Below, piece after piece: positions 1,205 to 63,875 of a DNA stretch of 64,000 bases. The stretch spans positions 372,001 to 436,000 of the forward strand of contig WBVU01000003.1 in the NCBI GenBank assembly GCA_009192285.1, in the 5' to 3' direction. Origin of the DNA: Morchella semilibera. Taxonomy: Eukaryota > Ascomycota > Pezizomycetes > Pezizales > Morchellaceae. The translations under genes were made by a program, and so were the position numbers. Within the stretch, counting starts at the first letter, position 1. Each line of letters opens with the position of its first letter. The notes beneath the pieces were generated by a model. That model was not told the DNA's origin and did not search any database. It was given only the letters and a program-made list of their open reading frames with translations.

Positions 1205-1623
1205 CCTACCGAACTGTCGGGACAACTGCCAAGACGCCGGGACATCTATCCATTCATCGATCATATTCAAAAAGAATCAGGCGAGCCAGTTATTTACCTT
1301 GTAGAAGATAATGCCCCTTGCCATAAAACAGCACAATTTATTGTTGCTGATATCCGCCATCAAAAAGGTATAATTACCTTCAACTGGCCCTCTAAATCTC
1401 CAGATTTGAATAAAATTGAGGCTATTTGGGACTATGAAAAGGATGAAATAGCAACGTACCAGTTCCAAGGCGCTACTCAGGAGACAATAGAAAGTGCAAA
1501 GGCGGCTCTCTTAAAGGCTTGGGAGGATCTTCTACAAGAATATATTAACAGAATGTGTATGGATTTTCATAATAAATGCGAGCTGGTTATTGAAAATGGA
1601 GGAGATAACAATTTTAACGGCTA
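1205..1623 (+). pseudogene. Tc1/mariner-type transposase, C-terminal remnant
   Basis: The frame ending at the TAG at 1621-1623 reads through the catalytic part of a DDE transposase: VEDNAPCH carries the second Asp, and WPSKSPDLNKIEAIW carries the conserved proline/Asp block and the catalytic Glu. By my count 36 residues separate Asp and Glu, slightly more than the 34 of classical Tc1. Upstream the frame still reads like transposase (DIYPFIDHIQKES), but the N-terminal DNA-binding region and first Asp are missing, so this is a 5'-truncated copy. It lies about 190 bp beyond the outer end of the LTR at 611-1018. The remnant ends just before an AT-rich stretch that may hold the element's end, but no terminal inverted repeat was recognised. 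Confidence 0.8.
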
Positions 1624-5630: not shown

Positions 5631-7412
5631 TTAGACAAGACGAGGTTTTTTAAGTCTAAGCTTATTCTTGAGACTAGCCATCTCTCTTTTGAATTCCCCC
5701 TGGTCCGAAATTCTCTTGGAAAAGGCGAAGTCGATGAACATGATCTTAGGCCCGTGAATAAGAATATTGTCTGCACGGATGTCTCCGTGTAGAAAGCCAT
5801 GGCCATGGATATCCGCAAGCAATCTCACGATCTCTTCACGCTCCTTGTCACTTAAATCCTCTACTTCGACCGGTGAGCTTGCGAACTCTGTCATAAGTGC
5901 GAAAAGACCCCCCGCCGTATAACCGGCACTCTTAAGCTTCGGAAGGGCGTGTCCCTGGAGCTTTTCCAATGCTAGATAAGTCCTGACTTCCGTGAGCATC
6001 TCCTCATGATATTCGGGGTTCTGCCACAGATCGCAGAGTTTGAGCGCAACTCTTTCTCCTCGAAAAGTCGCCTCAAACACCGTTCCACTACGCCCGTACC
6101 CAAGTACACCAGTCGTCTCGAAGCTATCCCAGTCGAACTTCTCTAGCCTGAGTTCTCTTTCCAACTGCTTGTTACCAGCCGCACCACCTCTGCCACTGTC
6201 TCGCCCGCCCCTTCCGGAATACCCTTTGGGGGGTTGGTATGTTGAGTCTTTGTCCTCATCATCTCTTTCTTCCGGAGGCTCATAGTCATCCCCGTGACTC
6301 GGCGGTGGAGGACAGTGGGGATCTTGACGTGCTAACATCATGATGTACGCGAAACACCTTAACAAGGTGGGGCTGGTAGCTTCAACCTTCACGACGTCTG
6401 ATACGAAGAGCGGACTAGGGTCGTCTTTGGGTCCGTCTTTGGGTCTCCAGAGAAACCATGTTTTGTCGTAAGTGGATAGGACACCGTATTGACGCTCGTT
6501 GTGCGCCATGTATCCAAAGATTTGCCTGATTGAATCGATGACGCATTCTGGAGGATTGCTAGCGTTGTATCTCCCCACCATATTGTCATCAGACAAAATC
6601 CACCTCGTCTTCACCTCAATAGGGAGCAAGAGGCTGCCACCAGTTCGAAAGACAAAGTCTGGATTCCCTTTGATGCCCCCAACATCGGACGAGTAGTGAA
6701 ACTTTTCTGTTGACAGTTCCCGATGTCCTATAAGATTTGAAAGGACGTCAAATACATTGATTCGGAGTGCAGTCAGTACGTCTCTCTCTCCTGTGGCCTC
6801 GGAGTCCCTAAAGTTTGGCCTATTATGCCGCGGAGCAGTGTCGTCCACGGCCATTTCGTTTGCATTAAGTATGAAGTCATTCCACTTTTTAACGGAACTG
6901 GGGCTGCGTGGCCATGTTGATTTTGTCGTAGTTTTCGTCTTCTTCTTCGGGGGAACAAGCGCAAGTAGTTGTGTCTCCGTAAGTTTGTCTATGAAGGTAA
7001 AACAATAAGGTCGCCTAAAATGAAATGATGCATACTTAGAAAAGAGAATATGTTTCACTTACTAGCTGGGGGGGGGGGGCTTCGACTACAGTTAGCAAAT
7101 ATGCGTACATGTAGTTAAAACGAAATGAGTGTTACTTACCGGGGGGCAAAATGACTAGAAACCCGGCGTCATTCCCAAATTCCTGGAAAACCGATGCGAG
7201 AGTCGTTCTCGCATCGATCTCCTTCGCGCCGTTATCACCGTCGACTTTCCTCTTCGCCTTAATGATGAGGTTAATAGTGGGAGGGTCAAGTCCTGCTTTA
7301 GCTTTGATTTTTTTTTTAGACTGGCTACATGCGTGACTCCATCCAACTGAACTGTATCCCACTGGCCTGGAGAATCGATGATTTTGTAACAAACTTCCTG
7401 GTTGTTCGACAT
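5631..7412 (-). CDS. CR/Crinkler-type effector: REase-like fold plus protein kinase
   Basis: The large open part (7058-5631) holds two domains. First is a PD-(D/E)XK restriction-endonuclease-like fold: GNPDFVF followed by LPIEVKTRW gives the D...ExK pattern. After a Pro/Glu and Gly/Arg-rich linker comes a kinase fold with a glycine loop (GYGRSG), an ATP-binding Lys (VALKL), the catalytic loop HGDIRADN and the metal-binding FIDF. This pairing is known from the CR (Crinkler/RHS-like) effector class of fungi and oomycetes, which act inside cells against other organisms or selfish DNA. Upstream, a header resembling the ubiquitin-like CR header starts near MSNNQEVCYK (7412) and is followed by a Pro-rich stretch. 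The header and body are separated by probable introns, and the header may carry about one break, so the gene may be a fossil. Role is inferred from family. Confidence 0.7.
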
Positions 7413-14252: not shown

Positions 14253-16787
14253 TCAAATAAAAGCCGCATAGCTTTCCATCCGCCTTTCCACAAAGCCCCT
14301 TTCATCCTCAATTCTTTCCTTTGACTTTCCCTTCCAACCCATTCGCTCATCATCATTGACCGGCCCGAATTGTGTATTGACCGCATTCTCAATGTCTATA
14401 GCAGATATCTGTGATAATACACTACGCGACCTGTACACCGCAGGTGGTATTCCATGTCCCTGACTACCAGGTCTGAGAAGAGCTTTAGCTTTCCCCTTTC
14501 TTGTCTCATTTTCTCTATTAAGCTTGCCGCTAGTGTAGTTCTCATTCATCCCGATGCTACTAACTGTACTTCTGGGAGTGCCCCTCGGGGTATTTTTGTA
14601 ATTCTCATTGGTGGTGAGAGCATTGCTACGATTCCAATTTGGGTTATAGTCTTTGACCTTAAGACCGCTCCTAATCTTCATTTTTGGCGCAATTGGAGTG
14701 ATGTTCACCCCGCGGTATGTATATTCATCGGGCTCTTGTGTTAATGCCGCCATCTGGGGTGGTTGTGCGCTCTCAGTCAATGCTTTAGGTGTGATAGTAA
14801 TGTTTGTGTAGACACTTGATTTTGACCCAGTATCCATAATACCCGTCGCTTTTCGGTAAGGACTTGGAGTCGACTCCCTCACAAGTTCATCAAGCGAACT
14901 CGAGTATGGAAAAAACGTTGATGCAGACCTACTTACAGGTAGTCTTCTCCTGGATATATTCTGAGGGGTAATAGGAGTATCGACCCGCTGCCTAGAGTCT
15001 ACATCAGGCTTGATAGCCAGCTCGGAAACCTGGTTAGCCAGCCCTGCAAGCTGCGAATCCGTGCTCATATGTTGTAATTCTTCTTGAGCAAGAGTGCTAA
15101 TAACCCACTCCTTCGTATTATTCGCGCAGCTCTCTCCTTGTTGAGAGGGTAATGACCGCGCAGGTAGAGGCGGTGGAACTTCGTTCCCAACCTTTAAGTC
15201 ACGCTTCCACTTCCCACTATTCTTCCTAATAGCTGTCACTACAGTGTTAGTGGATGCGGCTGTATAGGGTCTCTCAAACATATTCTCTTCTTCTGGCCTC
15301 AAAGCTAACCCAGGTGCCATGTAATACCCTGGCCCAACATATCCAGGGCCATGAACATACTCGCTCTCTTCCCTTCTTGCGCTGGGTGAACCCCGATCGA
15401 GGCGTCTCATCAACGCAGAATAAACCCTTTTTGCTTCGTAGCTCTTTTGCACCTGCTGCTCTCCAACAGAAGGCGGAGAGTAAATATTATCTTTGACCTT
15501 ATTTGGCATGTTTTCGTCAATTATAGAGAGTCGCTTCTTCTTCAATGAAGCGCCTAGGGTAGCATTCCATGTGGACTTGCCATCTGTAGTCGTAGATGAA
15601 ATCCTATGTGGTGGCTGCAACTTTATTGGAGGAGTTGCCTCTCCCACAGACCCGGCGACAGAGTGCAACATTTCGCATGATGGAACATGTCTAAATGTCG
15701 GGGCTCTTGATATAACCGCTGGACGGATTTTTATATTATTTGGCTCGGGGATATCCATAATGTTCTCATGGAGCTCCGAAGGACTGACATAATCTCGAAA
15801 GTGTTGCCGGGTGGATGTGACATGTTGCTCCGGGAATGCTGGTTCAGGCTTGACTTTTCTTCCCAATGCCCTCCGCATGGTTCCAAAAAAGGAGGCCGAT
15901 AGTTTCCTTGCTTTTTCGCCGACTACCTTCCGCATTGAAAGAGATACCTGCTCCTCTGTATCCTTTTTCCTGCGTACCGTTTCTAGAAACACCCCATGCC
16001 TCGCAGGCGCAGGCAAATAAAAGGATTTTCGTTCCTTTTGTGTATTTTTCTCCTCTTCCAATCTTCTTCTCACTGAATCTGACATGAAATCTGTTCCCCC
16101 TCGCAAAAAAGATGTAGATTTTCTTCTGTTTTTGCTCGACATACTATCAGGGGAGCGTTCAGATGAGTATATAACAGATGATGAATACTCATCCTGTGAC
16201 AAATCTTTGGAGAACATTTGGCCAACACTAAACATGCTTCGTGTTTTCTGGAGCCTTTTATATGAGGATGAACTTGAAGACTGGTAACTGCCAGGGTAAT
16301 CTTCGGCGTCTGTAGTTGTGAAATTCATGGAACGGCGTCCACGGGGCGTGAACCGTTTCTGCATATTTTCATGCCAATCAGATCTTCTCTTCATCTTAGT
16401 ATTCTCCATTTCAGAAGGCCCGGGAAGATCATAATCAGGGGCGGAGTTGCTGCTTTCACCCCCACCAACAACCCTGATAGTCCTGCTTCTTGCATCCAAA
16501 CCTTCAACGGTGGCTTGAGGATGGTTGATATCCTCAAGGTCTTCGCTACTGCTCATTGGAGTCTCAAATCTGACAATCTGAGACCGACGACGCTGTATGT
16601 CATCGCCATAGGCACGTTTTGCAGCAGCAACAGCCTGTTGGTTCCTTTCTTCAGGTGCCATAATTTCCGATTTTGTCAACGCCGTAGCTGCATGAGATAC
16701 GGTCTTTGACCGACGGATTCGGCCATTACGGCGGATAGTTGCAGTAGCGGGGTTAGGTGATGAGACGGTGTTGCGGCGTTTTAGCAT
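14253..16787 (-). CDS. Uncharacterised 844-residue basic, Ser-rich protein
   Basis: One uninterrupted exon from ATG (MLKRRNTVSSPNP) to stop. I do not recognise a named domain. The N-terminus is strongly basic (RRNGRIRRSKTVSH). Much of the chain is low-complexity Ser/Arg with many RRxS-like sites that kinases could use, and no membrane helix or signal peptide is evident. Better conserved-looking islands are KLSASFFGTMRRALGRK in the first half, FRHVPSCEMLHSVAGSVGEA near the middle, and KRLSIIDEN followed by RVYSALMRRLDRG. I have a weak recollection of similar islands in conserved hypothetical proteins of other Pezizomycotina, which would make it a conserved fungal family, but this is not checked. 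The final part contains ISAIDIENAVNTQFGP. The gene stands alone between non-coding stretches. Real gene: likely; function: unknown. Confidence 0.85.
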   Translation of the reverse strand: MLKRRNTVSSPNPATATIRRNGRIRRSKTVSHAATALTKSEIMAPEERNQQAVAAAKRAYGDDIQRRRSQIVRFETPMSSSEDLEDINHPQATVEGLDARSRTIRVVGGGESSNSAPDYDLPGPSEMENTKMKRRSDWHENMQKRFTPRGRRSMNFTTTDAEDYPGSYQSSSSSSYKRLQKTRSMFSVGQMFSKDLSQDEYSSSVIYSSERSPDSMSSKNRRKSTSFLRGGTDFMSDSVRRRLEEEKNTQKERKSFYLPAPARHGVFLETVRRKKDTEEQVSLSMRKVVGEKARKLSASFFGTMRRALGRKVKPEPAFPEQHVTSTRQHFRDYVSPSELHENIMDIPEPNNIKIRPAVISRAPTFRHVPSCEMLHSVAGSVGEATPPIKLQPPHRISSTTTDGKSTWNATLGASLKKKRLSIIDENMPNKVKDNIYSPPSVGEQQVQKSYEAKRVYSALMRRLDRGSPSARREESEYVHGPGYVGPGYYMAPGLALRPEEENMFERPYTAASTNTVVTAIRKNSGKWKRDLKVGNEVPPPLPARSLPSQQGESCANNTKEWVISTLAQEELQHMSTDSQLAGLANQVSELAIKPDVDSRQRVDTPITPQNISRRRLPVSRSASTFFPYSSSLDELVRESTPSPYRKATGIMDTGSKSSVYTNITITPKALTESAQPPQMAALTQEPDEYTYRGVNITPIAPKMKIRSGLKVKDYNPNWNRSNALTTNENYKNTPRGTPRSTVSSIGMNENYTSGKLNRENETRKGKAKALLRPGSQGHGIPPAVYRSRSVLSQISAIDIENAVNTQFGPVNDDERMGWKGKSKERIEDERGFVERRMESYAAFI

Positions 16788-17326
16788 CTTAAGATGATCG
16801 GGGAACTCCCCAGTTTGTTTGGTTTCTGAGTATTTGAGAAGGTGGATGAAGGTAGAGAGTAAGTGACGTGTATAAAAAAAAGGTGCTAAACCGCTCTAAT
16901 CGACACCTACATGTAATAAATGAATTAAGCTAAAATAAAAAATAAAAAGGGGGGGGGGACACCTACATGTATTGGGAGTACTGGCATGTGCCATTATTCG
17001 CGTCATGAAAAATCACTCACTTGAAACATTACACAGAATCATATTTTTTACGTATCCCGCACACAGCATCGCAGGCTATGTACCTAAAAGCTTCACAGAC
17101 GCGACGTTACCACCCGAGAACGATCGTAGAAAGGATATATGTTCGCTGAAATCAATGATTAACTCATTTACAAGACCTCATCATTATTTTCCCTCTAAAA
17201 AAAGTATTTAAAATGATAACGAAAAAGAAACCCGAACCCACATCCAACTTTTAACATACATCATTAAGAGTAAAAATAAAGTAATGGAATGACCCCTTCT
17301 TTGATTTGCGAACCAATCATCTCATA
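16788..17326. other. Intergenic between two minus-strand genes
   Basis: Contains the promoter side of the 14253-16787 gene and the 3' flank of the bleomycin hydrolase gene. It has two TACATGTA sites (near 16911 and 16962) and a 10-nt G run at 16949-16958. No coding frame was supported. Confidence 0.6.
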
Positions 17327-19030
17327 CTAAGCAAGACTTCCCATTGGATCCCAAATCGGTAACACGATTGGTTCCTGCTTGAGTACGTCCAGAATCTCTT
17401 TGCTAACAAATGCAGGATCTACAACTACCTGGTAACAATACTCAGTCATCCAATCATCACTCATAACCAAGTAGCCCTTCTCGCCAGAGTCGGCGCCCCA
17501 AGAATTCTCAATACGCCACTTCACGGGCTTTCCGTCGACGATATGCACACCAGTGAGAGTCATGGCATGGGTCATAGAAGACTCGTGAGTGAGGAGGCGT
17601 TGGGCTTTGTTCATACCCAACGTGACGTTGAATCCAAGCTCATAATCGAAAAGGTCTGTGTCTAGTATGCCTTTTTGAATATCTGAGAATTTTCCGACGT
17701 CGCATCCAAAGAAGACGGGACGTTGGGACTTGATCATTGCGATACAGGCCGCCTTCATAACATCCATATCAACATTGACATATGTCACACCTCGAGCCCC
17801 AACAATATTCCCAAGGCGCTCGACGGTCATGAGTCTATTGTAGGGGTTTCTGGGATCATTGACAAGGGAGAAACGCTCGCCAATACCCTTGTCACTGCTG
17901 AGAACGCCGCTAACGGTATCCAGCATCCCAGAAGCTCCCATAGAGCAGGCACCCATATTATCTTTGTAGAAAGCAACCGGAGTGGTCGTAATGGTATTGC
18001 ACTTCCCGTCTTTTTCGTAGTAGGTCCATGTAAATGTGTCTTCTGGCTTCGGCGGTGCGCCAAGCGCGAGCACAAGGATCCCGTAGACTTGTTGGACAAC
18101 CTTAGCTTTATAAACTTGGAGCTCATCAGACTTTTTAGTACCAGAGGCCGAGGAGCCAGCGATATCACGTCTGTATGGGTATTAGTCTTGTACAACAATA
18201 AGGGATAAACAGCTTAGACTTACAGAACTAAGGTTGCCTCGCGCAGCTTTGCGGTGATGAGCCAGTTGATACGGCCCGATGCCTTTGCGTTGAAGGAATC
18301 AGGGTACAAAGCCTGAGGAACCAAGCCATATTTCTCGACCAAGTTGACCGCCATGTCCCACTGGCCACCGTCGCTAACTGGCCCCGTCAACAAGTACTGC
18401 ATCAGTCTTCCGTCAAGCGGTTCATCGAGAGTATCGATAACCTCTACATGGACATTTTTGTTAGCAACATAGCCAACAGGGCTTCAACGATTATGAACTC
18501 ACGCTCGAGGAAGAAATTGGCCTTTTCGAGTTTGTCCCAGAAGGCCAGATAGCTCTGCGAAAGCTCAAAATTTGAAAGTTTATATTTCTTAATCAATCCG
18601 ACTCGGAAAACATTTGTGGAAGCAAACAGCCAGCATCTTCCAGTTGAACGTTGGTTTGTAACCGGCGTCCCCTCTAGCTCAATTTTATCGCTGAATATAT
18701 GTGTATCACTCAGCAACACAGATGGGTTTTGGAGAATCGATGTGGCTGCATGTGTACTAAGAGCCGCAAGAGCAAGCCGATTCTAGAAAGAATAGGTTAT
18801 ATAAGCGATTGATTTCTTCATAGGGATAGTATTAATAGATGCCCGCTTACCTTAGGATCTGAAAGAAGTTTCTGTTCCCATTTAATTGCGTTTTCTATCC
18901 GTATAGAAAGGGAGGGCTGCACATCAACATCCTTATCATGTAATGTGACTTCGCTAAGCCTTGAATGTAGCTTGGGTTTTTCTTGCTTGGGGTAGGTGGC
19001 AGAACGCGACTTGGAGCTTGAGTTACCCAT
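17327..19030 (-). CDS. LAP3: Bleomycin hydrolase, cysteine aminopeptidase (C1B family)
   Basis: Four exons: 19030-18851, 18782-18503, 18443-18224 and 18170-17327, giving 507 residues with consistent phases. The catalytic Cys is in QRSTGRCWLFA, the His in MTHAMTLTG and the Asn in IENSWG, in the order usual for papain-fold C1B enzymes. The family forms a cytosolic hexameric barrel that trims peptides and detoxifies homocysteine thiolactone and bleomycin. The start MGNSSSKS was chosen because it opens a typical N-terminus and also fits an N-myristoylation signal. An upstream in-frame ATG at 19132 would add a long Ser/Pro extension and looks less likely. The C-terminus is WDPMGSLA with no residue after the Ala; the yeast enzyme has a terminal Lys that it removes itself, so this copy would not need that step. 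Confidence 0.95.
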
Positions 19031-22897: not shown

Positions 22898-25800
22898 ATG
22901 GAGGCTGCGGGGGTACTGGCCACCACTTTTGGACTGTAACTAATCCACTTCAAACTCGCCAATGGTTAATTAGCTTGGTATACTGACAAAACATTTATAG
23001 AGGGATTTTGTTACATGCTTCTCAAGCAGCCTTCTTTACAGCTATCAACGGCCATATAAAGACATTATTCCTCCATCGTCGAAGGCTGGTCCTTCTCTCA
23101 TTCCTTTCATGTGTTTCAATATACTCTATTTTTCAGTTTGCTACCCTGCTACTCCTGGAAGATGCATCATGCAGTGTTATAGTCCGATTTACACTTTTTT
23201 TTGATCAAGCGGCTCGGATATCCATACTTGCACTTGTTGTTTGGAAGGTGTGTGACGAAACGGACAACACAAGCGAAAAAGTATGTTGGGTGGTAGTTCT
23301 TGGGCTGCGGATACTATTGGGCGGGATAACTGTTGGTTTTACGACATGGACATTTATGCCAGTTTGCTTTCCGCAACCAATACATTTCGCGACAGGAATT
23401 GTAAACATGACCTTTGATGGGCTATGCTGGGGTTTCTTACTTTTCAGAATTGTTACAACCTGGGGTCTTTTCGTAGATCAGGGAATGGGCGGGAAGGTGG
23501 ACGGGAAGAGTCAGGGTTATGGGCTATTCTTGGTCGTATTGAGTTTTATTGGGTGGATAGTTGTAAGTGCAGGATTGATGAAGGAGAATATAGGGAAAGA
23601 AGTCAGGCTAATCGAACCCAATGAAATTAGGGAAGTTTTCCATATCTGACGAATGTAGGGTCGAGTATTTTCGTTAAGATGGCCCCCTACATCATAACCC
23701 TGGTTTTAGCTCTCGGTAAGAATATAGTTTATATCTTAGAGATAAAAAAGAGGGTTAAACTAACCTCGATCATGTATTATAGGAGTCCTCGGTTGTTTTC
23801 CATATATTGTATTCTCTGTCCCTATCCCTAGATCAGATGAGTTGTACGATCGCGGAATTAGTCGATTCGGCTCTTCGCAGCCTAGCTCCACAAGAGTAGG
23901 ACAATCTATGGCCTCTCAAAACTCCAACCATAGGGATATTGAGTCAAACAGAATCAATCGATACCCATCCTATGGCATGGGCATCGACAAGAACTCCAAC
24001 GGTGCGCGAACAAACATGATGTTTCGGTCTATTATTGGGGCACCGATTGTTCACCCTGGTACAGCCACGCCATGGTCACTAGAAGCCAACAATGTGGAGA
24101 GCATTACAAGACCTAAGCCTACAAAAGCCATGCCAGAGAGCAGAAGACCCAGTGTTGTGGCGTCTCGTGGTGCGAGTCATAGTGTATCAGTACCAACGGG
24201 TTCAAAAGTGATAAATAGCTCTTTGGGCGCCGTAGAGCGGGCTCTGGAGATTCCAGCGGGCAATTCGTTTGGAGAGGTCAGGGCAGGAAATCTGAAGGCA
24301 GCAGCAGGACAACGTATCGATGCCAAGTTTGAGGGAGAACAGGAACGTAAAAGCTCCCGTGCCGAGACCACCAGCACGTTGAAATCTTCGGCAGACCGCC
24401 TAAAAATGGATAATTCAAGGAGCGTCAAGAGAACGCCCCCACGAACGCAACTTCCGTCGGGACCTGCCGCACTTAGGGTTTCTGCTGTTAAGAGAGAGGG
24501 GAATGGGTCGGAAAGCTCATCTAGTATGCAACAGTCTGGGTTTGTAGCAGCGGAAGGGGGGTCGGATTGGGGGACGGCATATAGTGTGGGTAGCCTTGGG
24601 AGTGATGATACGACGCGATTTACAGCAAATTCACATGCGCCATACACTTTAGCTGCACCTCCAAGAATTCCAAAAATCGATTTATTGGGTGACGGCCCAA
24701 AGGTCATGCTTCTCAAAGAAATTGTATATGATGATCCAGCGTTGGTAAAGTCAATAATGGGAAAGTCGGATGTTTCTTCAACAACCTCCAGGTACTCAGA
24801 ATCCAAAACAGGAGCCATCAGAAGGAGCCCCTCATCTATTCCCAAGCGGTCCCCAAGTCTCCCACCAACTAAGGGATTGAATGATTGGGACGTCTCCTCG
24901 CCTCCATTTACGGATGCATCATCAGTTATGGATAGACCAAGGAGTGTGAAGAATATTGCAGAGAGAGGAATCTTCCCTCCAAATAGGGACTCTGAGTTGG
25001 CAGCACAAATGCAATACAAGAAACAGTCAATCATACGGAGGGAATCTAAGGTTCCACAAGTTGATTCAAAGCCATTACCTGAAGTTCCGACTCAAAGGGT
25101 GAGCATGGAAAATAAGCTGACGAGAGAAATCGTGTTTCCTATTCCTCCTCCGAGATCTTCCACCAGAAAAGGTGTCCCACCAATTACTATCACCATCCCA
25201 ATTTCTTTACCTTCTGGAATAATCCAAGAAGTCACAGCTTCTGGTAAAACTGAAGATGCTCAGTCAAATCCCAGCCCTAAACCGGCAATTCCCGAAAAGT
25301 CAGAAAAGCGCCTAATGACCCCGGCAGTCAATGATCAGAGAGCTGGTTTTTCTGCTTACGAGACTGCAAGAACATGGGCTGAAAGCGTATCTGCTGCAAA
25401 TGACAAGCCCAGATATGTAGAGAGTGTAATAGAACCACTCCTACCAGTCGCGTACGACATGTCAGACGACATGACCCCGAGAATTGCTGCAGCAATCTCG
25501 GACGGTAACCATAAGCGTCAGAGTTTAATGGCCTTGACCGTATCCCCTCTCTTTCATGTGGAGGACGATGTCTTCACAGACATTGAAATGGACTCCGCCT
25601 CCGAAGATGGAGGCGGCCAAGACTTGGAAGTGGCTAATGTGGGATCCGTGTCCGACGAACAGACCCAAAGTGAGGCAGATGAAATGATTATGAGCGGAGG
25701 AGATGGCTACTCCACAGAAGACGAATCCTATGAAGATGTATTCACTGAGAGCGAAGAAGGGTCTTATCTCGATGATGGAATCGTAATCTCGGACATGGAG

Positions 25801-28800
25801 GAAGGAACGAGTTATGATAGGATCGCAATCACAGAACGAAAGCCTGATGACAAGGTACAGGAAACCACCGAAGCCTTAAAAAACGCTACTCCTGTTACCA
25901 TTCATTTCCGGCTTGGAGATAGCATCCCTACTTTCTCAGAGAGCAGGCGGAAATATGGAACTAAGAGGAAGCCACCACCATCCCCGATAGGGTTCTTAGT
26001 CCAACAAAAAGGCAACTCCAAACAAAAGATGGAGGCACGACTGACAATATTCGCTGGGACCCGAAATCCCACCCCTCTTGAAGACCTCTTGAGTAAACTT
26101 CCTGTCAACAAGAAAGGCGACTCACGCGTGAGTTATTTATCTGACGGTAGAAACTCTTTGTTAGCCAAGTTGGAGATGGAAATGGGACAGCAGGAGGATG
26201 AATGGATGGGGTTGCATAAGACATTAGAAAGAAGTTCAATAGGATCGCTCGAGGAAGCCCTTGAGCATAGGGCCTTACGCACATCCCAGGATCTCACAGA
26301 ACGACGCTACTCTCTCGAAGAGATCAACGAGGGTGCTGTGGTTGACAGACGATTGAGTATTCCTGACGAAGAGCCGATTAGTTCAGGTACCAACCAGAGC
26401 GCGTGGCATGCTCAAATGAAGTACGTTGCTCAGGAACCGTTGGGGAGTTCGGGCGATATTCTCGATAGACCAACCTCTATCCTCGGAAGTCAAAACACAC
26501 CAATATTGATCGTGTCGGATGCTGAGATGTATGATTCCGGGGATGAGTCACCATATGGCGCAAACTACCACGAGGTTCAGGGGGAATCCTTATACGGAAG
26601 TGATAATTCAGACTTCACCACAGAGGAGGACGAAGGGGTCGAGCAATACACAGAATATGAGGAGATGTCCGAAGACAGCAGTGAGATTCAAGTTCTTGAA
26701 CCTACGGTCTACTGTCCTAGCTCTACTAGCATAATTCCTCATCCTCAATTTATCTACTCCGTCACTTCAGAATCATTCTCTTTAGGCGCAAGTCCGTCCC
26801 CAATTTCATTCCTCTGGAACGCCCGCCTCATCCAGAAAAGTCCCCCTCCTCTGAGTAACCAGCTATGGACACACCATGTATGCCTTCCAAGAACCCCCTT
26901 AGGTCTTCCTGCTGCACTAGATCTCCGACCAAAACGTCGTGTCTCAAATGCGCCTATCTCAAAAGCTACTACAAGCTTATGGGTGAACTCATGCAACCCT
27001 CATACCCAATCTAACACAGGCCTGTGGAGAAATCCTCAAGAACAAAAGCTGAAAAGTATTATCACCTCTTCATCCGGACATAGTAGGACTCGCTCGCTGA
27101 AGCTTAAGAGAGTTACGTTTGTGGAGGACGTGATGACAGGTACTAATTCCATTCTCTCTTAAGACAATCACCTAACAAACATATATAGTCGAGACAACCA
27201 GTTTTTTCGGAAAACTCAAAAAACTCTGGGGAGGCCAGTACACGAAATCTCCTTCTGCCGACAGTCCCGCTGTTCCGGGGTACCTGAGGGATATCGAAGC
27301 CCCCATGAATACAACCTTGGACTCTGTTACCGTGAGATACGCAAACAAGACGTTTCCGCCTCCTCCTCCCAAGGAAGATACCATAAAGAATAAAGAACCC
27401 GGCAATGCGACCTGCAATCACCTCTGGTCACAACCTAGTCTCCCAGCTGTTCCTCAATCTTCGCTGCTGTGGAACCCAACACCTGTGCAAAAATCCCACG
27501 ATACAAAATTGTTCACCAAAGACATATCTTTGCTCCGCAGAAAGACCCCTCAACCAGCATTCTTGCCAAATCTTACTTCGAACAAGTTGTGGAGACCTTG
27601 TTCAGAACAGCCGATGATGCCATCACTTTGGTCAACTAGCTCTACCAGGACTGGATATCTCTGGCCCCACGGCGAAGGGACAGCACTTGTTCGTAGTTTC
27701 CTCTGGCCCTCTGCCCCACCCGCCAAAGAAATTGAGGTTACTAAATCCAGGTCTCGATCACGAGCGATCACTCGTATCACGTGCCTACAGTCATCTTCGC
27801 TCTGGGCCCCTGCTCCAGCCTGCGAGAACGGGGGAAACAAAGGCACTACACTTTGGAAGCCTGTAGACTCTGGAATAAAGGTTTCAGTGTTCCGGCCAGG
27901 GCTTTGGATTAAGAAGCAGCATATTACGCCCGTTGCCTCTGGACATTTATGGCCCTGTGCACCCGAGCTACCTATATTACCAACATATTCGCCAATTACT
28001 CGAGTTCGCGCTGCCTCAACTACATCCCAGATTCTCAAATCTAATCAATTATGGTCATCTACCAAAGAAGTAATTGGGCTCTGGTCACCCCCGGCAACAT
28101 CGAATGGGCTCTGGCCCCATGGAGAGCCTGTAAAAGCGGTTTCTTCCCTTTGGCCTTCTGCACTGCCGCTGACTCTTATTCCCGTAAAAACCGCACCAAA
28201 ACGTTCAAAAGTTATGACAACTGGTCTTGATGAGCTTGAATCGAACAAATTATGGGCTCGCCCTGACGTTCAACCCGAACTCGAGGCAGAGGGGACGTGG
28301 GAAGCCGCAACCGTTGTCGCCAAGCGGAATGCGGAAACACTCCCAAATCTGCTCTGGGCTGCACCCGAAAAAGCTCCACACGTGTTGATACCTAGCTATC
28401 TTTGGCCATTAGCTCCTCCCCTTCCACTCCCACGTATTTCGCTTTCGATAAGGTCTCGAAATCCATCGGCGAAGAACCCAGTCGTATCTGTCTCTGGAGG
28501 CCTTTGGAGTTTGACACCAGAATTGACTCCACGCCTCTGGTCTGCTCCAGAATCTGAATCTGGACTTTGGCCTCACGGAAAACCTCAACATGCACAAACG
28601 GCAGCACTATGGCCATCTGCGCGCCCACTTGCAGGCGCAGAGACTCAGACTCTCCGCACCGTCCGTACAATCATTGGCGGTTTGCAAATACGATCATCAC
28701 AACTCTGGAGCGCAGATTCAGCTTTAAAAGCAGGATTATGGGTACCACCTCCTAAGAAAACAGGATTATGGCCCGATGGAGTGGTGGTTAAGAGAGAATC

Positions 28801-31800
28801 TGTTGGATTGTGGCCCTCTGCCGCTGGTTTAAAGCACGCAGCAACCACGTCGATTCGCCCCAAACAACGCAGCCCCGTCAATCTAGCACCCTTAGAATCT
28901 CGTGAGCTTTGGGGCAATTTCAAAGTTAGTCAGTCACTCTGGAAAAAATCAATTGGTCAGAGGGGTTTGTGGCCTCAGGGCGCTTATAATTCTGGGAAGG
29001 AACGGCTTTGGAGCGCCGATAGCAACATGCAAATTGACATAAGGGGAAACATCACATTGAAATTAGAAATCGTTGAGGGAAGGAAGAGATATGAGAGAAA
29101 AGCAATAACGGCCATATTAGAATCGCACTCGCTGTGGAGTCGATCGGTAGATATCCGACCAAAGTCTGCTGGCCATCTTTGGGTAAAAGAGATTGAATTT
29201 ATCAGCGAGCTGCCCAAAATCAAGAGTGAGCTGCAGGAGAGAGACGATGTTGCTTCAGTATCACCCGGTTTATGGGCTTACCCATCTCCTGTTTCCTCAC
29301 CATCTCCTGCAAATCTAATAGCTCCCGTTGCCGTACTTTGGACGGCATCTCCCCTCGAAGCACCCAGGATACAACCCGCTATCTGCCGGGAAACCATCTC
29401 AGTCGCAGCAGTTCAACTTCAACAAAAGAAATCGGCTAGAACTGCCAACTTGACGCTGACACCTATGCAAGGCAATCTCTGGGTCGCAGGGAGCCCGTCG
29501 TTTTTATCCGGAAGATCAACACCTCGTGCTGGGATAAAGCAAGCTCCTCAGTACGGTCTGTGGAACTCGGCCAGAACACATGCCAAGCAGGAGAAAAAAG
29601 TTCCTTTGTGGCATAGACACACTGTCATTGGCAAGGATCGAGGTGCGGTGAGGCAGGAAACAACAACGAACACCACTGATAGATCGTTCATCGCCGTGAA
29701 TTCCGATCAACTCGAGGCCTTTATCTCTGCCGAAACAGAAGAGGGTAGTGTCAATCATGTCCATCATAACGGGCTATGGCATACAACCATGATAAAGCCG
29801 GCAAAAGAAAATCCGCTCGTTGGAGGTGCAGACACGGTTCCTCGGGAAAGGACATTTGTTACTCCGAGGACTTGCACCCTTTGGCAAAAGAATAAAAGTG
29901 ACAAACCCATAGCACCGATATTTCCGGCATCAGTAATGATAATCCCTGTAGTCCCATCGAGATCGAATAAGCGAGCAGCATCGAATATTCTTCCCCCGCT
30001 TTTCTTGGCAAGTGTGAGTGGCCCAATGTGGACGGCTGATAAAACGAGAGAATCCCGTCCGCGTGTACCATGGCGTCAAACGGAAAACGAGGCTCACACA
30101 GGAACGAAAGGTATTTGGGAATCCAAAGTTAATAAGTATAGTGCTCTAACTGAAATCAACCAAGTTACCTTGCCGGAGAAAAAATTGAATCTTTGGAGTT
30201 TTTCCGGAACAAAACCAAACCGACAATCAATTTCTCATAACCTGTCAGTTGAGTCAATTCGCAGGTCTAATACTACCATCACCAGGAACCACAATTCCAT
30301 CACAAATCCCATGGAGGGATCACTTTGGGTGAAATTAAGCAATACTACTCCAGAGAAACCGAAGCTATGGCGCAAAGCAGAAATCCCACAGAGACTGTGG
30401 TCAGCCGATAATGTCAATAGCAGCAGTGATATGACTATCACCGCTGGGGTGGCTCCTGCTGTCGCAACTACTTGTTTGTGGGGAAAAGAAAGTGTCACCA
30501 CAACACCCATTTTCGCCGACCTTTCGCTCGAATCCTCTCGATCTCGCAGAGAGTTTACCCCCAAAACATTCTCGGCCCCGCCTGAGGGATTGTGGAAGAA
30601 GGCTTTCACTAGCGAACCATTAGCGATGATTGTCGAAGTGCCAAAGCTTGGCCTTTGGGGAGCCACTGAGACTACACCAGCTGCTAAGAATGTCCCTACT
30701 AAGACACTTTGGCAGAAGGGCAATACAGAGACACCAATCTTCGCTGATCTACCCGTTGAATCTTTCCGCTCGAAGAAGGATCACTCTACTGCAACACTTC
30801 CAGTCTTCTCAGAGGGTATGTGGAAGAAAAAGGTTGCACTCCCGGAGCGCCCTCAGTTGTGGAAACCAACTCCAAAAGCAACAGGTTTATGGGATGCAAA
30901 TGCGAAGACCAAAACGCTTGCCCAGATATCCTTGGAGAGGAAAGCAAAGGCGACAAAGAAGCCACTGTGGTCAAAGGAAAAGGCTTCAAGGACAACTGCA
31001 AAGGTTCCTCAGCGATCACCGCTTGCCATCGTCCGTACCCCAGATGACTTGGCTCTCCCCAAAGCCACGGGTGATCTTTGGAAGCCAAAATCTTCAGCAC
31101 GTCAAGCACCAGAGCTTTGGGCAGCCCCGAAACAAGTTGCAACGCCTACAGAACCTACAAAGCCAGTTGCGAAATTTCTCTGGGGTCAAGGATCTAGGTC
31201 TAGAGCAGCCGCTGAAGTTCTAGAGCGAACAAAGGTTCCCTTCGTCCCATCCGATGACCCACTTCCTACAGTGTCTGGTTCGCTGTGGAGACCAAAGCCG
31301 GCAGCCAAACCGATCAGTCTCTGGAAGCGCCCAATCAAGAAGGCGGCCACAACCGGAGTGACTCCATCCGTACCTCTATGGGCAGCAGGAACAGCATCCA
31401 GGACCACCAACACAGTACCTGAGCGCCTCCCTATTCCGAAAAAGAAAGATACGAGGAGTACCGTCCTTCCTCCAGTAACAGGTTCACTCTGGCAGCCGCC
31501 TAAGCGCGCCCCTAAGAAGGGTCTCTGGAAAGCCCCAGCTCCACCAGCCCGCCGACCCCGCAGTGCAAGCCTCCTCTGGGCATCCCACTCGGCAGCACGC
31601 ACAACTGCCGCGGCTCCGGTTCGGACCACAGTGCCGAAACGTCTCATTGAAGTGCCCCTACAAACTGTCAGCGGTAATTTGTGGAAGGCCCCATCTAATG
31701 AACCTAAAAAGGGTCTCTGGAAACGTCCCATCCCAACTGTCGCAACATACCGTAGGACCAGCACAACGGCCCTATGGTCAAAGGAGTCTGCTTCTCGAAC

Positions 31801-33121
31801 AACATCCGCAAAACCAGAGCGTGCTCCTTTCGTTCCAAAGGTTGTCGACGAAAAGTCTTTTGTCCTCGCACCTGCGACCGGAGACCTCTGGATGCCCCCC
31901 TCATCAGCAACACCGCAAACAGTCAGCCTCTGGTCTCGCCCTGCCACTCCTACCCCCGGTAGCGGTGTCTGGGATGCTAAAGGCCGTACGCCGACCCTGG
32001 CAGAAATCAATCTTGCTCTTGCAACTCGACGAGACAAGACGGAGCTGTGGCAGCGTCGCAGCGTGTTGACTGCAAAGCCCACTATAGTTGACATCAGCAA
32101 AATAACTTCCTCCCCAACAGCCCCACAGAAAAAGGTCAAAACCACCGAACCAGCCCCTGTACCACAAGTCGATGGCAGTCTATGGAGGCCCTGTGTGGAT
32201 GGGAAAAATGAACAGGGTATCATGTGGATTACTCGTTCCTCTCGCTCCTCTTCTCTGGAATCAGAATTTATCTCTCCCGGTGTGAGCCGCGCTTCAACAA
32301 TCAGTGACGCGAGCGACGAAACCGAGTCTCCCTTGACGACAAGCAATGCGGATACATTCGAACCGGGGGTTATGAGGATCCACAGCACAAAGGTTAGCGT
32401 CTCTTCCGCGGCCGGGGAGAACCTGTGGAGGCCTATTGGGGCGGCGGAGGGAGTGGGAAAGGGAAAGGAGACCGCCGGGCTAGATCAGAAAGAGCAAGCA
32501 CTTCCTACATGGGGTGCTTCGCACTCGCTTTGGAGTAAACCGTCTACTGATGAAGAGAAGGTATAATATTTCCCTTTAAAAGGCCGACTAAAAACTGGAT
32601 GACTCACTTAACTATTAGGCGGCGATCTGGGAAAATCCCGACTCATATGCCTGCTCCTCAGTCTCTGACGAGGACTTTGCATCAGCTGCCTCCGAGATCA
32701 GCGAGGAATCCCACTACCACGATTTCGACACAAGCCACGAGCCTGAAAATCATTCAAGCAACATGTGCACCCCCTCCTCCTCTAACACCCAAGTGTTTGT
32801 TGGCCAATTCCGTCGTGACAACTACCTCCTCCGTAAGAAGCCCCTCTCCCATTCTGAGTCACACACCTGGCAGCACACTAACGATGATTTTTTCCCCAAA
32901 TAGACCAGCGACCCAACACACAACTCCCAGAAAACTCTCCATTTGCTTCTAACCTCCGCATCAAGAGTCTCCGCAAAAAGCTAAGACCCACGCACGGCGC
33001 CCCCGGTACAGCCGAAAGGAAACGCCGCAACACCGAGGGCGAGGAGGAGAGGGAGTGGCTCAAGGTCGATAGCATCCCCATGGAAAGAGCTGTCTCCATG
33101 GGCGATGATCATCATCTATAG
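22898..33121 (+). CDS. Giant multi-pass membrane protein with LW-repeat tail (about 3,263 aa)
   Basis: Seven exons: 22898-22935, 23001-23562, 23631-23715, 23837-27139, 27189-32560, 32619-32832 and 32904-33121. Their sum is 9,792 nt, exactly 3,264 codons, and every junction has a GT donor, an AG acceptor and matching phase. The first 240 residues hold about seven hydrophobic helices (from MEAAGVLATTFGL to MAPYIITLVLAL), so the head is probably a polytopic membrane domain. Residues 240-1200 are disordered, Ser/Pro-rich, with one island LLKEIVYDDPALVKSIMG near residue 519 and two very acidic stretches near 25560-25830 and 26510-26690. From about residue 1220 to 3115 the chain is built of repeats centred on Leu-Trp. 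The C-terminus is basic then acidic (RKKLRP, EGEEEREW). I do not recognise a named family; I vaguely recall polytopic fungal proteins with similar tails. Function unknown. Confidence 0.88.
26812..32560 (+). repeat. LW-repeat region of the giant protein
   Basis: I count about 67 Leu-Trp pairs in exon 5 alone, plus four at the end of exon 4 and several MW, VW or IW variants. In the first half the recurring phrase is GLWPHG...SLWPSAxPL, seen at least four times. In the second half a unit of about 55-60 residues recurs: LWSKESASRTT, then PERAP, a basic/Pro stretch, then LPxVSGSLWKP and KKGLWKRP. The spacing between Trp residues is usually 8-35. The units differ at many positions at the DNA level, so they are old or under selection for the protein rather than fresh copies. 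Confidence 0.9.
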
Positions 33122-35341: not shown

Positions 35342-37660
35342 CTAGCTACGGCGGAAATTGAGCTCCCCATATGTGCTCTGAAAAGCACGTATTCTATCGC
35401 CTCCAACCAGTAAAACCTTCTGCCCAGTATACCACGCCGTATCCTGGATCATTTTCAAATTTTGTTTCACAGCCCTGTAATTGAATATTTCTCCAATCGA
35501 TATTTGCCCATTCGGCTTTATATTTATTCGATAGAAGTTCAGGTCAGGTCGCACATTTGGATCCTTGCCTAGAAGATGATGGCCACTCTTCATATAGTAG
35601 TCATCAAAAAGACTAGCGAGCGTCATTTCCCCATAAGCTGCAATGGTGAGTCTTTCCCAGTCCCCTGCTATCAAAGGTGGATCGAGAGGGTCACCAAGCC
35701 AGAATTCAAACGTGGTCAGAACGTGGCTACTGAGCACTTCTAGTGCCGGAGGAAGATTTTCCTGTCGAAAGTTGTTCTGGACAACATCATCTAGCTGTGG
35801 CGGCGATGGTTGTAAATGTGGAGGTAGAGGTGGTACATGTGTCTTGAAAGTTACATACTGCCCATGACCAAGCTGGTTATGTACCTTCCGTGGAGGTTGC
35901 AAGGGTTGATGATTCTGAGGATGCTGAGGATGCTGAGGATGCTGGGGGTGCTGAGGGTGCTGAGGATGCTGAGGATGCTGAGGATGCTGAGGATGCTGAG
36001 GATGCTGAGGATGCTGAGGATGCTGAGAATCCTGATGGTGCTGATACTGAGAGTTCTGAGGGTTCTGATACTGAGAATTCTGAGGGTGCTGAGGATGGTG
36101 AGGGTGCTGGGGTTGCTGATGGTGAGGATGATGGAGATATTGGTGTTGTTGGACCTGCTGGGGTTGATGCGGCTGGACCTGATGCTGCGGGATGTGTGGG
36201 ATATGCTGGATGTGCTGGGGTTGCTGGGGCTGTCGGGGGTATCGGGAGTTCTGGGGATATTGAGGGAGTTGGGGGAGTTGGGGATGTTGGGGATACTGGG
36301 GATGTTGGGGATGCTGGGGATGTTGAGGATGTTGAGAGCGTTGGAGATTCTGCGGATGCTGTGGGTTTTGCTGGTGCTGGTGTTGGTGGTGCAGAGGTCG
36401 TGTGGGTCGCGGGTACTGTGAAAAGTTCCCATAAGGCATATACTGGGTAGGTAGAGGAGGCGTATAGTGCACGGGTGGTGAAGAGTGCTGTAGGACTGGA
36501 GGGGCTGGGGGACGTGGAAGATGCATATACTGTGAGGGCTGCAGAGATTGTGGAGGATGCAAAGGTTGTGGAGAATGTAGAAATTGCTGAGGTTTTGAGG
36601 GTATTTCAAACCGCTGCCCGAGCGGCGGGAGCGGAGGCGGGGGCGGGGGCGAAGAGGGTGGGGAGGAGTGTGGAGGCTCTGGAAAGGTGGCGAGGAGTTG
36701 TTGGTTATAATCTAAAAGATCGATATCATGACGATTGATATATAGCTCTTCTAATTCCGCTTGTGCTTGAGCTGACGGTTTAAATTCGACAGGCTCCTTG
36801 TATATCACCAGTTTCGTGCCCATGGGCTCTTTCTTCTCTGGTAATCTAAACTTGTTTGCGTACTCAATTTGAGCCCGAGTAGCCCCAGAAACCTGTGCAA
36901 GCTCCTCCTCAATCTCATCAAAGTCGTAATACGACCAGAACATCTCGGGATCCATAACCACTGCTTCCACGGGATCGCCTATTTTTAAGCCACCTATTCC
37001 ATCCGTGAGTCTCTTTGTAGGAGTTACATCTGGAATTTCTTGAAATGGTAACATGACGGGGGAGGTCTCTGTTAATTCCGGATACTCTTTCTCTATGGTT
37101 GCTGATTCTGGGGGGGCCGCCACCTCCGGGATAGGGGGCTCTTCCTTAGTGATCTCTACCCCGGGGGCATCTAATTTCAAGATCTCTACCTCTGGAGCAG
37201 GGGGTTCTGCCATTGTGGGCACCGCTCCTAGAGTCTCTGGTTTTGAGGTCCCCAGCTCTGGAGTATCTTCTGCCTCTAATGCCTCTGGTTGTAGAGTGGC
37301 CGGTTCTGGAATAATTTCCTCTGTATGAGTTGCCACCGGAGCCACTATATTTAGAGTCGTTACACTTTTAGTCGGGCTCATAGGAGTGGCCGAGCCTGTG
37401 GCCATTGCTACTACTCCTGGATATGTACGTCTTGTCCTTGCCCTTGCCCTCCGCCTGTTAAGCCCTCTTGCACCGAGGTTTATATAAGCAAATCTACCCT
37501 TAAACTGGAATCGTCCCCTGGACGGTATTAATGGATCGTGTGCCGGCGGGGCAGATGATCCTCGGTGCAGCTTACGTTCCCCGCGGGGCATAAATCGGAA
37601 TAGAGTATTGCGCTTTGTATTGTGGTTGTGATTTAGAGAAGGAGCTGGGACACGTTCCAT
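35342..37660 (-). CDS. Uncharacterised 772-residue protein with HPQ repeat
   Basis: Single open frame from MERVPAPSLN to stop. The N-terminal 90 residues are very basic (RRRARARTRRTYPG). A Pro/Glu-rich acidic stretch follows. Then comes a folded-looking segment with EMFWSYYDFDEIEEELAQ and KLVIYKEPVEF. Residues of about 350-610 are Pro/His/Gln-rich and end in many HPQ triplets. The last 160 residues look globular: LSSHVLTTFEFWLGDP, DWERLTIAAYGEMTLASLF, LNFYRINIKPNGQISIGEIFNY and WYTGQKVLLVGGDRI. I do not recognise this domain. No signal peptide or membrane helix is visible. Long open frames on the opposite strand and in other frames here are by-products of the 9-bp repeat. A real gene is likely because both flanks of the repeat stay open and look protein-like; its role is unknown. 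Confidence 0.78.
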   Translation of the reverse strand: MERVPAPSLNHNHNTKRNTLFRFMPRGERKLHRGSSAPPAHDPLIPSRGRFQFKGRFAYINLGARGLNRRRARARTRRTYPGVVAMATGSATPMSPTKSVTTLNIVAPVATHTEEIIPEPATLQPEALEAEDTPELGTSKPETLGAVPTMAEPPAPEVEILKLDAPGVEITKEEPPIPEVAAPPESATIEKEYPELTETSPVMLPFQEIPDVTPTKRLTDGIGGLKIGDPVEAVVMDPEMFWSYYDFDEIEEELAQVSGATRAQIEYANKFRLPEKKEPMGTKLVIYKEPVEFKPSAQAQAELEELYINRHDIDLLDYNQQLLATFPEPPHSSPPSSPPPPPPLPPLGQRFEIPSKPQQFLHSPQPLHPPQSLQPSQYMHLPRPPAPPVLQHSSPPVHYTPPLPTQYMPYGNFSQYPRPTRPLHHQHQHQQNPQHPQNLQRSQHPQHPQHPQHPQYPQHPQLPQLPQYPQNSRYPRQPQQPQHIQHIPHIPQHQVQPHQPQQVQQHQYLHHPHHQQPQHPHHPQHPQNSQYQNPQNSQYQHHQDSQHPQHPQHPQHPQHPQHPQHPQHPQHPQHPQHPQHPQNHQPLQPPRKVHNQLGHGQYVTFKTHVPPLPPHLQPSPPQLDDVVQNNFRQENLPPALEVLSSHVLTTFEFWLGDPLDPPLIAGDWERLTIAAYGEMTLASLFDDYYMKSGHHLLGKDPNVRPDLNFYRINIKPNGQISIGEIFNYRAVKQNLKMIQDTAWYTGQKVLLVGGDRIRAFQSTYGELNFRRS
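35913..36115. repeat. 9-bp coding minisatellite (HPQ array)
   Basis: Tandem copies of a 9-bp unit close to CTGAGGATG on the plus strand, coding His-Pro-Gln on the minus strand. The core between about 35925 and 36025 is nearly perfect and the flanks are degenerate, ending in related GTTGGGGATG-like repeats further right. Length variation between strains is likely. Confidence 0.85.
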
Positions 37661-37898
37661 TTGTCCATATATATGTTGGTGCGTGACATACGTGGCTAGG
37701 ATAGATGTGGGTAGATGATGTGGTCTATACTGTGGGGGATTGTGAATATGTGGTTTTTTTCTTTCTTCTTTTCGCGTATAACGAATACGTGGGGTGGGGC
37801 GAGGGAGGGAAGTCGAGGCACCTTGGTCATGGCAGATTGATCGTTTGGTTTAAAGGGACGTGTTCTTAAATATACCGTGATTCAAGTACTTTACACTA

Positions 37899-46109: not shown

Positions 46110-47499
46110 ATGGCGACAACCCCTACACCGAACTACATTGACCCGCCTACGCGTGCTCCGATGGTCGTGGCCACAAATGCGGGAATGATATGTGTATCTT
46201 TTTTCTTCGTGAGCTTGCGAGTATTTACGAGGTATAACCTTAGGAATTTCGGCCTCGATGACATTTTGATATGTATAGCTTGGGTATGTATGTCCTTCCC
46301 GTGGAAATGCGGAGTCGTTTATAATGTATATACGGATCTCCACTGACACGCAAGTTTAACAGGTGTTCTGCTTTGGCATGTGCCTCTCCATTGCACTCTG
46401 TTGGTCTCTCCCGATATCTCCTTCGCTCATACATCAATTACTGACAAGTCTCAGCGACGAAATATGGAACTGGCCGACATGTATGGGATATACCAGCTGA
46501 ATGGAGGAAACCGGCGTGGAAGCTGTCGTACACGTTCACGGCGCTGTATAACCCGACGCTCTTGATGACAAAGACGTCCATCCTCGCCTTTTACATTAAC
46601 AAGTTGGGCAGCGAGAAGACGTTCCGGAGGGTGTGCTGGGTCACGATGGCGTATGTCGTCTGCAGCAGCACGAGTATCTTTTTCTCAAACATATTTCAGT
46701 GTTCGCCGATACGTGGAGGGTGGGATTATACGGTTCCAGGGAGGAAATGTATTAATGTATGTTGTTCCCACTCGCCCAGAAATCCCCCAACTCAACATAT
46801 GTTCCCCCTCTAAGCAACAAGCTAAAATAACTCGAAAAGACCACCCCTCTATACTTTTTCTCTGGCGCCAACAACCTAGTGACCGACCTGATACTGCTCT
46901 TCCTCCCCATGCCCGTCATCTGGAAGCTTCGTCTGCCGCTCCGCCAGAAGATCGGTCTCGTCATGGTCTTCTCCATGGGCATCTTCGTCACCTGCATCAG
47001 CATTGTCCGCATCCACATGGTCAGAATCGCCATGGTGAGCAAGGACCTCAGCTGGACCGGCGCCGTGTCCAGCACCTGGTCGGCCGTCGAGCTCAATGTC
47101 GCCATCATCTGCGCGTGCACGCCGGCTTTCAAGCAGTTCCTCACGTGGGTCGCGCCAGGAATCATGGGCTCGAGCGTCAAGAAGAGCGGCTATTACGGGA
47201 GCAACGGATTAAGGTACCACACGAACGACGGCAAGGGCGGGGCCAACACCGGCGGCGCCGGCGCCGGCTCAAGGAAGAGTCATTTGGGGGGCTTGGGGAG
47301 GTCGGCGGGCGGGGGAGCAACGTGCACAATCACCGCAACGCACAACAATGATAGCGAGGAGTACATCATGCATGATCTACAGGGAGGGGAGGCGCACCAG
47401 GGGATGGGCATCAGCGTCAACAAGACGGTGGAGGTTGTGGTGCAGAGTGAGTCTGTGAAGGATGATTCCACGAGCACAGACAGAGGGGCGAGTTGGTAG
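46110..47499 (+). CDS. Pth11-like fungal rhodopsin-domain membrane protein
   Basis: Four exons: 46110-46283, 46363-46399, 46455-46756 and 46840-47499, 390 residues with matching phases. Hydrophobic segments start at MVVATNAGMICVSFFFVSLRV, then LDDILICIAW, FCFGMCLSIALS, the long exon with LMTKTSILAFYI and AYVVCSSTSIFF, then LVTDLILLFLPMPVIW, GLVMVFSMGIFVTCISIV and VELNVAIICACTPAF: seven in all. Family hallmarks are YGTGRHVWDIP, YNPTLLMTKTSILAFY, CINTTPLYFFSGANNLVTD and the conserved ACTPAF near the end. The C-tail is Gly/Ser-rich and cytosolic. Members act as surface sensors in filamentous fungi, for example Pth11 in appressorium induction; no CFEM domain is present here. Ligand unknown. The last intron ends in a weak aag acceptor, chosen because it restores the family motif. 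Confidence 0.92.
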
Positions 47500-62800: not shown

Positions 62801-63875
62801 ACTTCGTCAATGCGGGTATGCAGATCCCTGAGTTCACGCTCACGCTGCTCGGCGACGGCCCATGCATAGCGAAAGTCAGTAATAATAGTCATTACCTCCG
62901 TTGCTGTGAGAGTTTGTAAATTCTCGATGGTTGTGGGTGTTTCCAGCGATAGAAGATTTGGGCGGAAAAGCGCAAGCTCCATGTCAATCTCAAAGGGCGC
63001 AAGTCCGGTGAGACTACGTCTACGACGGCTTCTAGAGCTACTAGAACCTCCGCGGGAACGTCCACGAGAGCTAGGACGAGATATGACCTGATCGTCCCCG
63101 GCGGGGCGGAGTGGCGCCATTCTTGGCGGGCCGGCACGAAAGCTTCTATCAGTTGGTCCTCCGCCGCGACTGAGGGGGCGTGGAGAACCAGAGCGTAGAG
63201 TGGGGTTAGAGCCAGGCCGAGCAGGGCTGGACATACGGCGATCAGGAGTCGCCGCGCCCGGAAAGACCCTACGGCTAGGAGTGGCCGAACCCAAGGGGGT
63301 GGACGTGCTCAAGGGAGTTTCTAGGGTCCCTGTCGCATCGCCCTCGCTATACGCGAAACTGTGTCCGTCTCTGGGTGATGATGGGAAGGGCCCGACAAGA
63401 GCGTGCCAAAGAGAGTTTCCTTCCCCGTCTTCATGAAAGCAAGGGGAGAGGGGAGGTGAGCCAGCGCTGAAAGGCGGACCGTCCCGGGATACCATTTCGG
63501 GGTCACCTACATCCTCGTATACGTCCTCTTGGGTGAACTTTCCAGCATTCTTGAAGATTTCCATGAGCTGCAGGATGCCATCCTGCTCTTTATTGATGTC
63601 ATCAAAAACCCGTATGAATTCCTCCTCGGTGAGAGTGAGGTCAGGTGCCTTTTCAATGGTATTGTAGATAGTCCCCTCAGAGTCTTTTTCTAGAATACCA
63701 TATTTTTCGCATCCTGGGAGTTCTTCTTCAATCTGACGAATAAGGGGAATGAAATCACGGATTGAAATCTATACACAGATTAGCACTCGTTCCGGGCTTG
63801 GGGTGAAAAGGATCGCCATACACTCCCGGTGTTGTTAGGGTCAAAGCGCTTGAATGTCGCTGAAAACAAAGCCAT
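59801..63875 (-). CDS. EF-hand, coiled-coil protein with C-terminal membrane anchor
   Basis: Three exons, 63875-63822, 63768-60406 and 60307-59801, sum to 1,308 codons including stop. Residues 8-30 hold a canonical EF-hand loop (DPNNTGSISIRD). A second, degenerate one follows in VFDDINKEQDGILQL. A Ser/Pro/Arg-rich stretch leads into FEIDMELALFRPNLLSLE and then a coiled coil of about 200 residues (from FRYAWAVAEQRERELRD to ELAACRADVEHL). After that come acidic and Gly/Pro-rich parts, a folded-looking segment (YEDYMQYYLGNYLSEEQ, then a similar YEAYRQYYFGAYM), and near the end a membrane helix (WSILSFILICGLITLTMF). A Cys-containing tail ends in FDDDCMALPPT. The last intron lies in a G/C-run-rich stretch; without splicing the frame ends in HERPW. 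I do not recognise the family. The layout suggests a calcium-responsive tether on an internal membrane, which is inference. Confidence 0.85.

Follow-up and report, generated by a model that had tools for sequence, protein, structure and literature searches.

A Pezizales gene of Morchella semilibera predicted to join a receptor-like seven-helix head to a long leucine-tryptophan repeat tail

A 64,000-nucleotide stretch of the Morchella semilibera genome (contig WBVU01000003.1, positions 372,001 to 436,000; the window) contains, at positions 22898 to 33121 of its forward strand, a seven-exon gene for a protein of 3,281 residues, in which a polytopic membrane head is followed by a tail of recurring leucine-tryptophan (LW) pairs. 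This single Pezizales gene probably encodes a receptor-like membrane scaffold or anchor, whose cytosolic tail would act as a docking scaffold with many sites. The parts that can be read from the sequence are the 3,281-residue frame, seven hydrophobic helices, a charge pattern that places the N-terminus outside and the C-terminus inside, the conserved residues Cys70 and Cys135, and an LW array that is conserved too. Beyond an earlier note on the same DNA, the analysis adds the predicted seven-helix receptor-like fold, a 68-residue super-repeat and an RVTF site.

The list of open reading frames (ORFs) contains long frames at 22987-23649, 23764-27162 and 27176-32566, which the earlier note had joined through introns into one gene of seven exons and 3,263 residues. 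The joining and the seven exons stand: all six introns have GT..AG ends, and the spliced frame is free of internal stops, its length being a multiple of three. The residue count does not, because intron 3 ends at 23782 and not at 23836, and 18 residues at helix 7 had been missed. The corrected intron 3 (23716..23782, 67 nt, GTAAGA..ACTAAC..TATAG) replaces 23716-23836 and restores GVLGCFPYIVFSVPIPRS, which completes the seventh hydrophobic stretch as part of the last membrane helix. The uncorrected and the corrected frame are both open, with lengths that are multiples of three. The restored stretch has counterparts in four related proteins (P0001, P0002, P0003 and P0009), aligning with ALGVLGCFPSIVFSVP in P0001 of Morchella snyderi and with ALGVLVLFPSIVFSVP in P0002 of Choiromyces.

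After correction, introns 1 to 6 measure 65, 68, 67, 49, 58 and 71 nt, and all exons lie on the forward strand. Exon 1 (22898..22935) carries the start codon and the beginning of helix 1, with a MEAAGV start common to P0002, P0003 and P0013, while exon 2 (23001..23562) encodes the remainder of helix 1 through helix 6, including Cys70 and Cys135. Exon 3 (23631..23715) contains the helix 6-7 loop and the start of helix 7. The relatives' short ORFs support the splice sites by diverging at the donors: P0011, P0012, P0014 and P0016 part from the query at the intron-2 donor, and P0017, which reads through intron 2 and covers exon 3, diverges at the intron-3 donor, as do P0013 and P0015. Exon 4 (23783..27139) holds the end of helix 7 (to 23832), a tryptophan-poor middle with an acidic part, and the first LW sites; exon 5 (27189..32560) holds most of the LW tail. 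Exon 6 (32619..32832) encodes the C-terminal region, and exon 7 with the stop codon (32904..33121) gives an ending that resembles that of P0001.

The gene is real as far as sequences can tell, its one frame being confirmed by relatives in Morchella snyderi, Choiromyces, Geopyxis and Tuber. A search with the whole protein found three matches among 2,732 scored candidates: P0001 (M. snyderi, 3,128 residues, 71% identity to the query), P0002 (Choiromyces venosus, 3,292 residues, 39% over 40% of the query) and P0003 (Geopyxis carbonaria, 1,814 residues, 30% over 33% of the query). A four-row alignment search found nine matches among 8,000 candidates, seven of them new and including P0007 of Tuber borchii; a head-only alignment search found seven among 8,000, every one an exon-sized ORF. 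In total, there are 17 related proteins, and the organisms of P0001, P0002, P0003 and P0007 all belong to the Pezizales. The protein searches consider only candidates that are 0.55 to 1.75 times as long as the query and have short words in common with it, and relatives in other classes may therefore still exist. Within its own genome (56.8 Mb, 23 contigs) no paralogue was found: exon 2 and two exon 5 pieces match themselves only, apart from one second match to exon 5 (E 0.63) that was taken as chance.

Head and tail occur in one predicted protein in 3 of the 17 relatives (P0002, P0003 and P0009), and P0001, annotated from helix 5 on, has helices 5-7 plus the tail, which bears out the earlier proposal of one protein with both parts. 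The other 13 matches are partial, with six middle or tail parts (P0004-P0008 and P0010) and seven head parts (P0011-P0017). Homologues with head and tail in separate genes, which the earlier note had named as contrary evidence, were not seen among the 17, a test left incomplete by these seven head-only matches and six without a head. Each of the seven short head ORFs stops either at a predicted splice donor or within an intron; judged from the ORFs themselves, they fit exon fragments.

The head is predicted to take the seven-helix fold of G-protein-coupled receptors (GPCRs). In particular, its structure model has seven hydrophobic helices, the inside/outside charge of 10 versus 0 is the pattern predicted for an outside N-terminus and an inside C-terminus, and a Foldseek comparison finds GPCR-type helix order and arrangement (for example 9kpd, 7xp6 and 6nbf). 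The matched receptors likewise have cysteines at the tip of helix 3 and in the loop that joins helices 4 and 5; their identity is 4-19% among the rows listed, and they differ from the present protein, whose tail is about twelvefold larger than its head. Cys70 is kept in 7 of 7 rows and Cys135 in 10 of 10, making them a candidate disulfide pair. Moreover, wherever a row covers D81, Q82, R85, R116, D152 or W198, the residue is unchanged.

Several other assignments of the head were set aside. Retinal-binding microbial rhodopsins have a lysine midway along helix 7; in the aligned rows no lysine is shared within helix 7 and a shared K/R occurs only at its start. The Pfam match to Strabismus (E 0.25 and 0.16) was dropped, as were three weak single-member Pfam matches (HTH_5, 0.022; DUF1833, 0.029; DUF5134, 5.2). 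NCBIfam gave no family for the head, and no PDB sequence matched one head or the head profile. Folds missing from the structure-match lists are not thereby excluded.

The LW array (26803..32630, residues about 1236-3142) is broken by introns 4 and 5. Residues 1237-3150 contain 72 LW pairs, about tenfold expectation (mean 7.1, maximum 16 in 500 shuffles), and leucine precedes tryptophan in 72 of 81 cases. Tryptophan pairs at a lag of 68 residues (plus or minus 3) number 40 versus 21.6 expected, a count matched in none of 2,000 gap shuffles of the 77 tryptophans used; the LW periodicity described earlier is thus confirmed. By eye, the early array has four tryptophans per period, with seven such groups at 27590..29026 (residues 1482-1960), and the late array (30824..32062, residues 2560-2972) has mostly three per basic module, the late LW region carrying a net charge of +55 over 630 residues. 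When a profile made from five late units was run against six sequences, it picked out six units each in P0001, P0002 and P0004 (E below 1e-5).

The tryptophans are the conserved element of the tail. Of the query's 82 tryptophans, 80 are identical in M. snyderi, 60 in Choiromyces and 53 in P0004; in Choiromyces the residue next in identity is leucine, with 82 of 176. Across residues 2560-2975, 19 of 19 tryptophans are invariant in six sequences, and AlphaFold2, run on those residues only, gives an unstructured prediction (predicted local distance difference test 42.7, predicted template modelling score 0.15). The late LW region is therefore predicted to be disordered, a prediction that covers residues 2560-2975, with the early array outside it. 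Such short conserved motifs amid otherwise weakly conserved sequence suggest a role in docking or as stickers. Among known motifs, GW/WG, WxxL/I/V, PWxxW, tryptophan followed by D/E, FG, NPF and SxIP were none of them above shuffles.

Between head and array, residues 246-1235 contain few tryptophans and are partly acidic (net -51 over residues 651-1235), with blocks such as IIGAPIVHPGT, EIVYDDPALV and SDGRNSL kept across genera with small changes. Pfam gave no family for the middle (exon 4) or tail (exon 5) pieces. An RVTF sequence at residues 1338-1341 (27109..27120), within RVTFVEDVMTVETTSFFGKLKKLWG, lies in a conserved block that runs on across intron 4 and has by sequence the RVxF docking motif of protein phosphatase 1 (PP1) regulators, a motif present in at least 85% of such regulators according to one source (PMC10743859), in which GADD34 has KVRF. 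All 9 sequences extending to this site read RV[TA]FVE; the region is missing from P0005 and P0006. PP1 may thus bind at RVTF. Further upstream in exon 4, before EIVYDDPALV, several relatives have [KR]VLF.N.I.YD.PALV, with the look of a second RVxF-type site, and the sequence here is KVMLLKEIVYDDPALV. That second site was dropped, as the KVLF of relatives is KVML in this protein.

Together, these elements suggest how the protein might work. The head would either sense something or fix the protein in the membrane, and the cytosolic tail of about 3,000 residues would present dozens of LW sites with a period of about 68 residues. These sites could bind one partner repeatedly, or the tail itself, and so concentrate many copies locally; the RVTF site, ahead of most of the array, might bring PP1 to the same spot. 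The nearest known plan, by analogy and not kinship, is that of the class C orphan receptor GPR158, which likewise joins a seven-helix receptor-like head to an extended cytosolic tail with tryptophan-containing motifs; there, two conserved VCPWE motifs regulate the interaction with Go, and the receptor controls RGS7-G-beta-5 (PMC9027133). The present protein would operate on a far larger scale, with 72 LW pairs, no large extracellular domain such as that of GPR158 and no sequence relation to it found. GPR179, the paralogue of GPR158, has repeats of its own, on which a literature search listed no paper. A bolder version of the scaffold, tentative and rather less likely to be true than false, is a receptor class that has so far been seen in Pezizales only. 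Its GPCR-type head would bear a cytosolic tail twelvefold its size, in which a period of about 68 residues recurs some 20 times; grouped LW pairs would dock many copies of one dedicated partner, and PP1 would sit at the tail entrance, making a self-built signalling condensate.

Several observations weigh against the scaffold interpretation. The gene model comes from genome sequence, and the head model, of moderate confidence, was built from ten sequences that include several fragments; with Foldseek, no more than 7 of its 853 matches have an E of 0.001 or better. No GPCR family was matched by sequence in Pfam, including the fungal rhodopsin domain PF20684, or among PDB sequences. Class A GPCRs are marked by two motifs, DRY where helix 3 ends and NPxxY within helix 7; in the aligned head rows neither was found, the helix 3 end reading WKVxDE or VR-type and the helix 7 end FP/YP-type. 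In the tail, the late-unit profile matches the early units only weakly. In P0003 and P0009, which have 12 and 14 LW pairs, it detects no good unit; either the array is variable or these two protein models are incomplete. By charge-hydropathy, 7 of the 16 windows across residues 246-3281 count as ordered, including five within the LW region. The docking role of LW is putative. RVxF-like strings are common by chance and occur four times in this protein, which is why conservation is the argument for RVTF; at the spacing of the second hydrophobic pair of GADD34, the protein has only T-V.

The main rival, to which we give a real but minor chance, treats the head as a mere anchor and the protein as a structural tether or gel-former, for example at the tips of hyphae or at septal pores. 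Pezizomycotina are already known to rely on a giant, repetitive tether, the Woronin-body protein Leashin (LAH; PMC2690989), and on disordered septal proteins (PMC10023807); moreover, the tail is rich in regularly spaced tryptophans and its late part is predicted to be disordered. However, the Neurospora Leashin repeats printed in the Leashin paper (LPVDEDLDLLPALPES, PEEVELPASP) are acidic and tryptophan-free, whereas the late LW region is basic. The acidic PELS-rich central repeats of Leashin find no equivalent in the net positive LW region, and the published consensus differs. It is the membrane protein WSC that links Leashin to Woronin bodies, and the word transmembrane was not found in the text of that paper (PMC2690989). 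In addition, a mere anchor would not obviously need the six conserved polar, charged and tryptophan residues of the head.

Somewhat less probable, and on balance unlikely, is a true GPCR acting on a fungal G-alpha with the tail as its regulator. The fold match and the cysteine pair favour it, but a fold in common shows no function, and the missing DRY and NPxxY argue against it, as does the lack of a Pfam match above cut-off, whether to PF20684 or to another family. Pth11-like proteins with PF20684 are likewise fungal seven-helix membrane proteins, and the window contains a partial gene of this kind at 46831-47496 (+ strand, E 9.2e-32). The present protein has no profile similarity to that one sequence, which makes a weak control.

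It is very improbable that the tryptophans serve as a GW/WG Argonaute hook or as Atg8-binding motifs: spaced tryptophans in a disordered tail resemble GW proteins, but GW/WG occurs 6 times versus 8.0 expected, WxxL/I/V 3 times versus 15.3, and leucine stands before nearly every tryptophan. Least credible is a false merger of two or three neighbouring genes, for which the annotation of P0001 from helix 5 and the one-part matches might speak, but against which stand the joined parts in P0002, P0003 and P0009, the head ORFs that stop at donors or within introns, and the conserved blocks that cross introns 3 and 4.

Elsewhere in the window, the reverse strand carries four further genes or frames. 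An 835-residue frame at 35342-37849 includes a long tract of His, Pro and Gln and matches no Pfam family at E 0.01, and an 880-residue frame at 14253-16895, also without a Pfam match, adjoins a peptidase C1-like gene (PF03051) at 17327-18181. A kinase-like protein at 5631-7058, presumably FunK1-like, has a Pkinase match (E 4e-9) at residues 314-460 behind a long N-terminal part. A 1,192-residue frame at 60190-63768 is partly proline-rich, with no Pfam match in the 500 residues scanned.

In the open-access literature, no described family with the layout of a receptor-like head and an LW tail was found, nor was a paper on such a protein among those listed. A 2025 classification assigned 28,294 fungal GPCRs to 17 classes and left 141,666 seven-helix proteins unclassified; its seed search required over 75% coverage of both query and entry, and could therefore have missed a protein in which a head of 250 residues is followed by a tail of 3,000 (PMC12842992). 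Receptors of such a build may have been overlooked in fungal surveys. The LW array offers a conserved, testable motif, and since morels and truffles are both valued, a receptor-like protein common to the two would be useful for understanding their biology.
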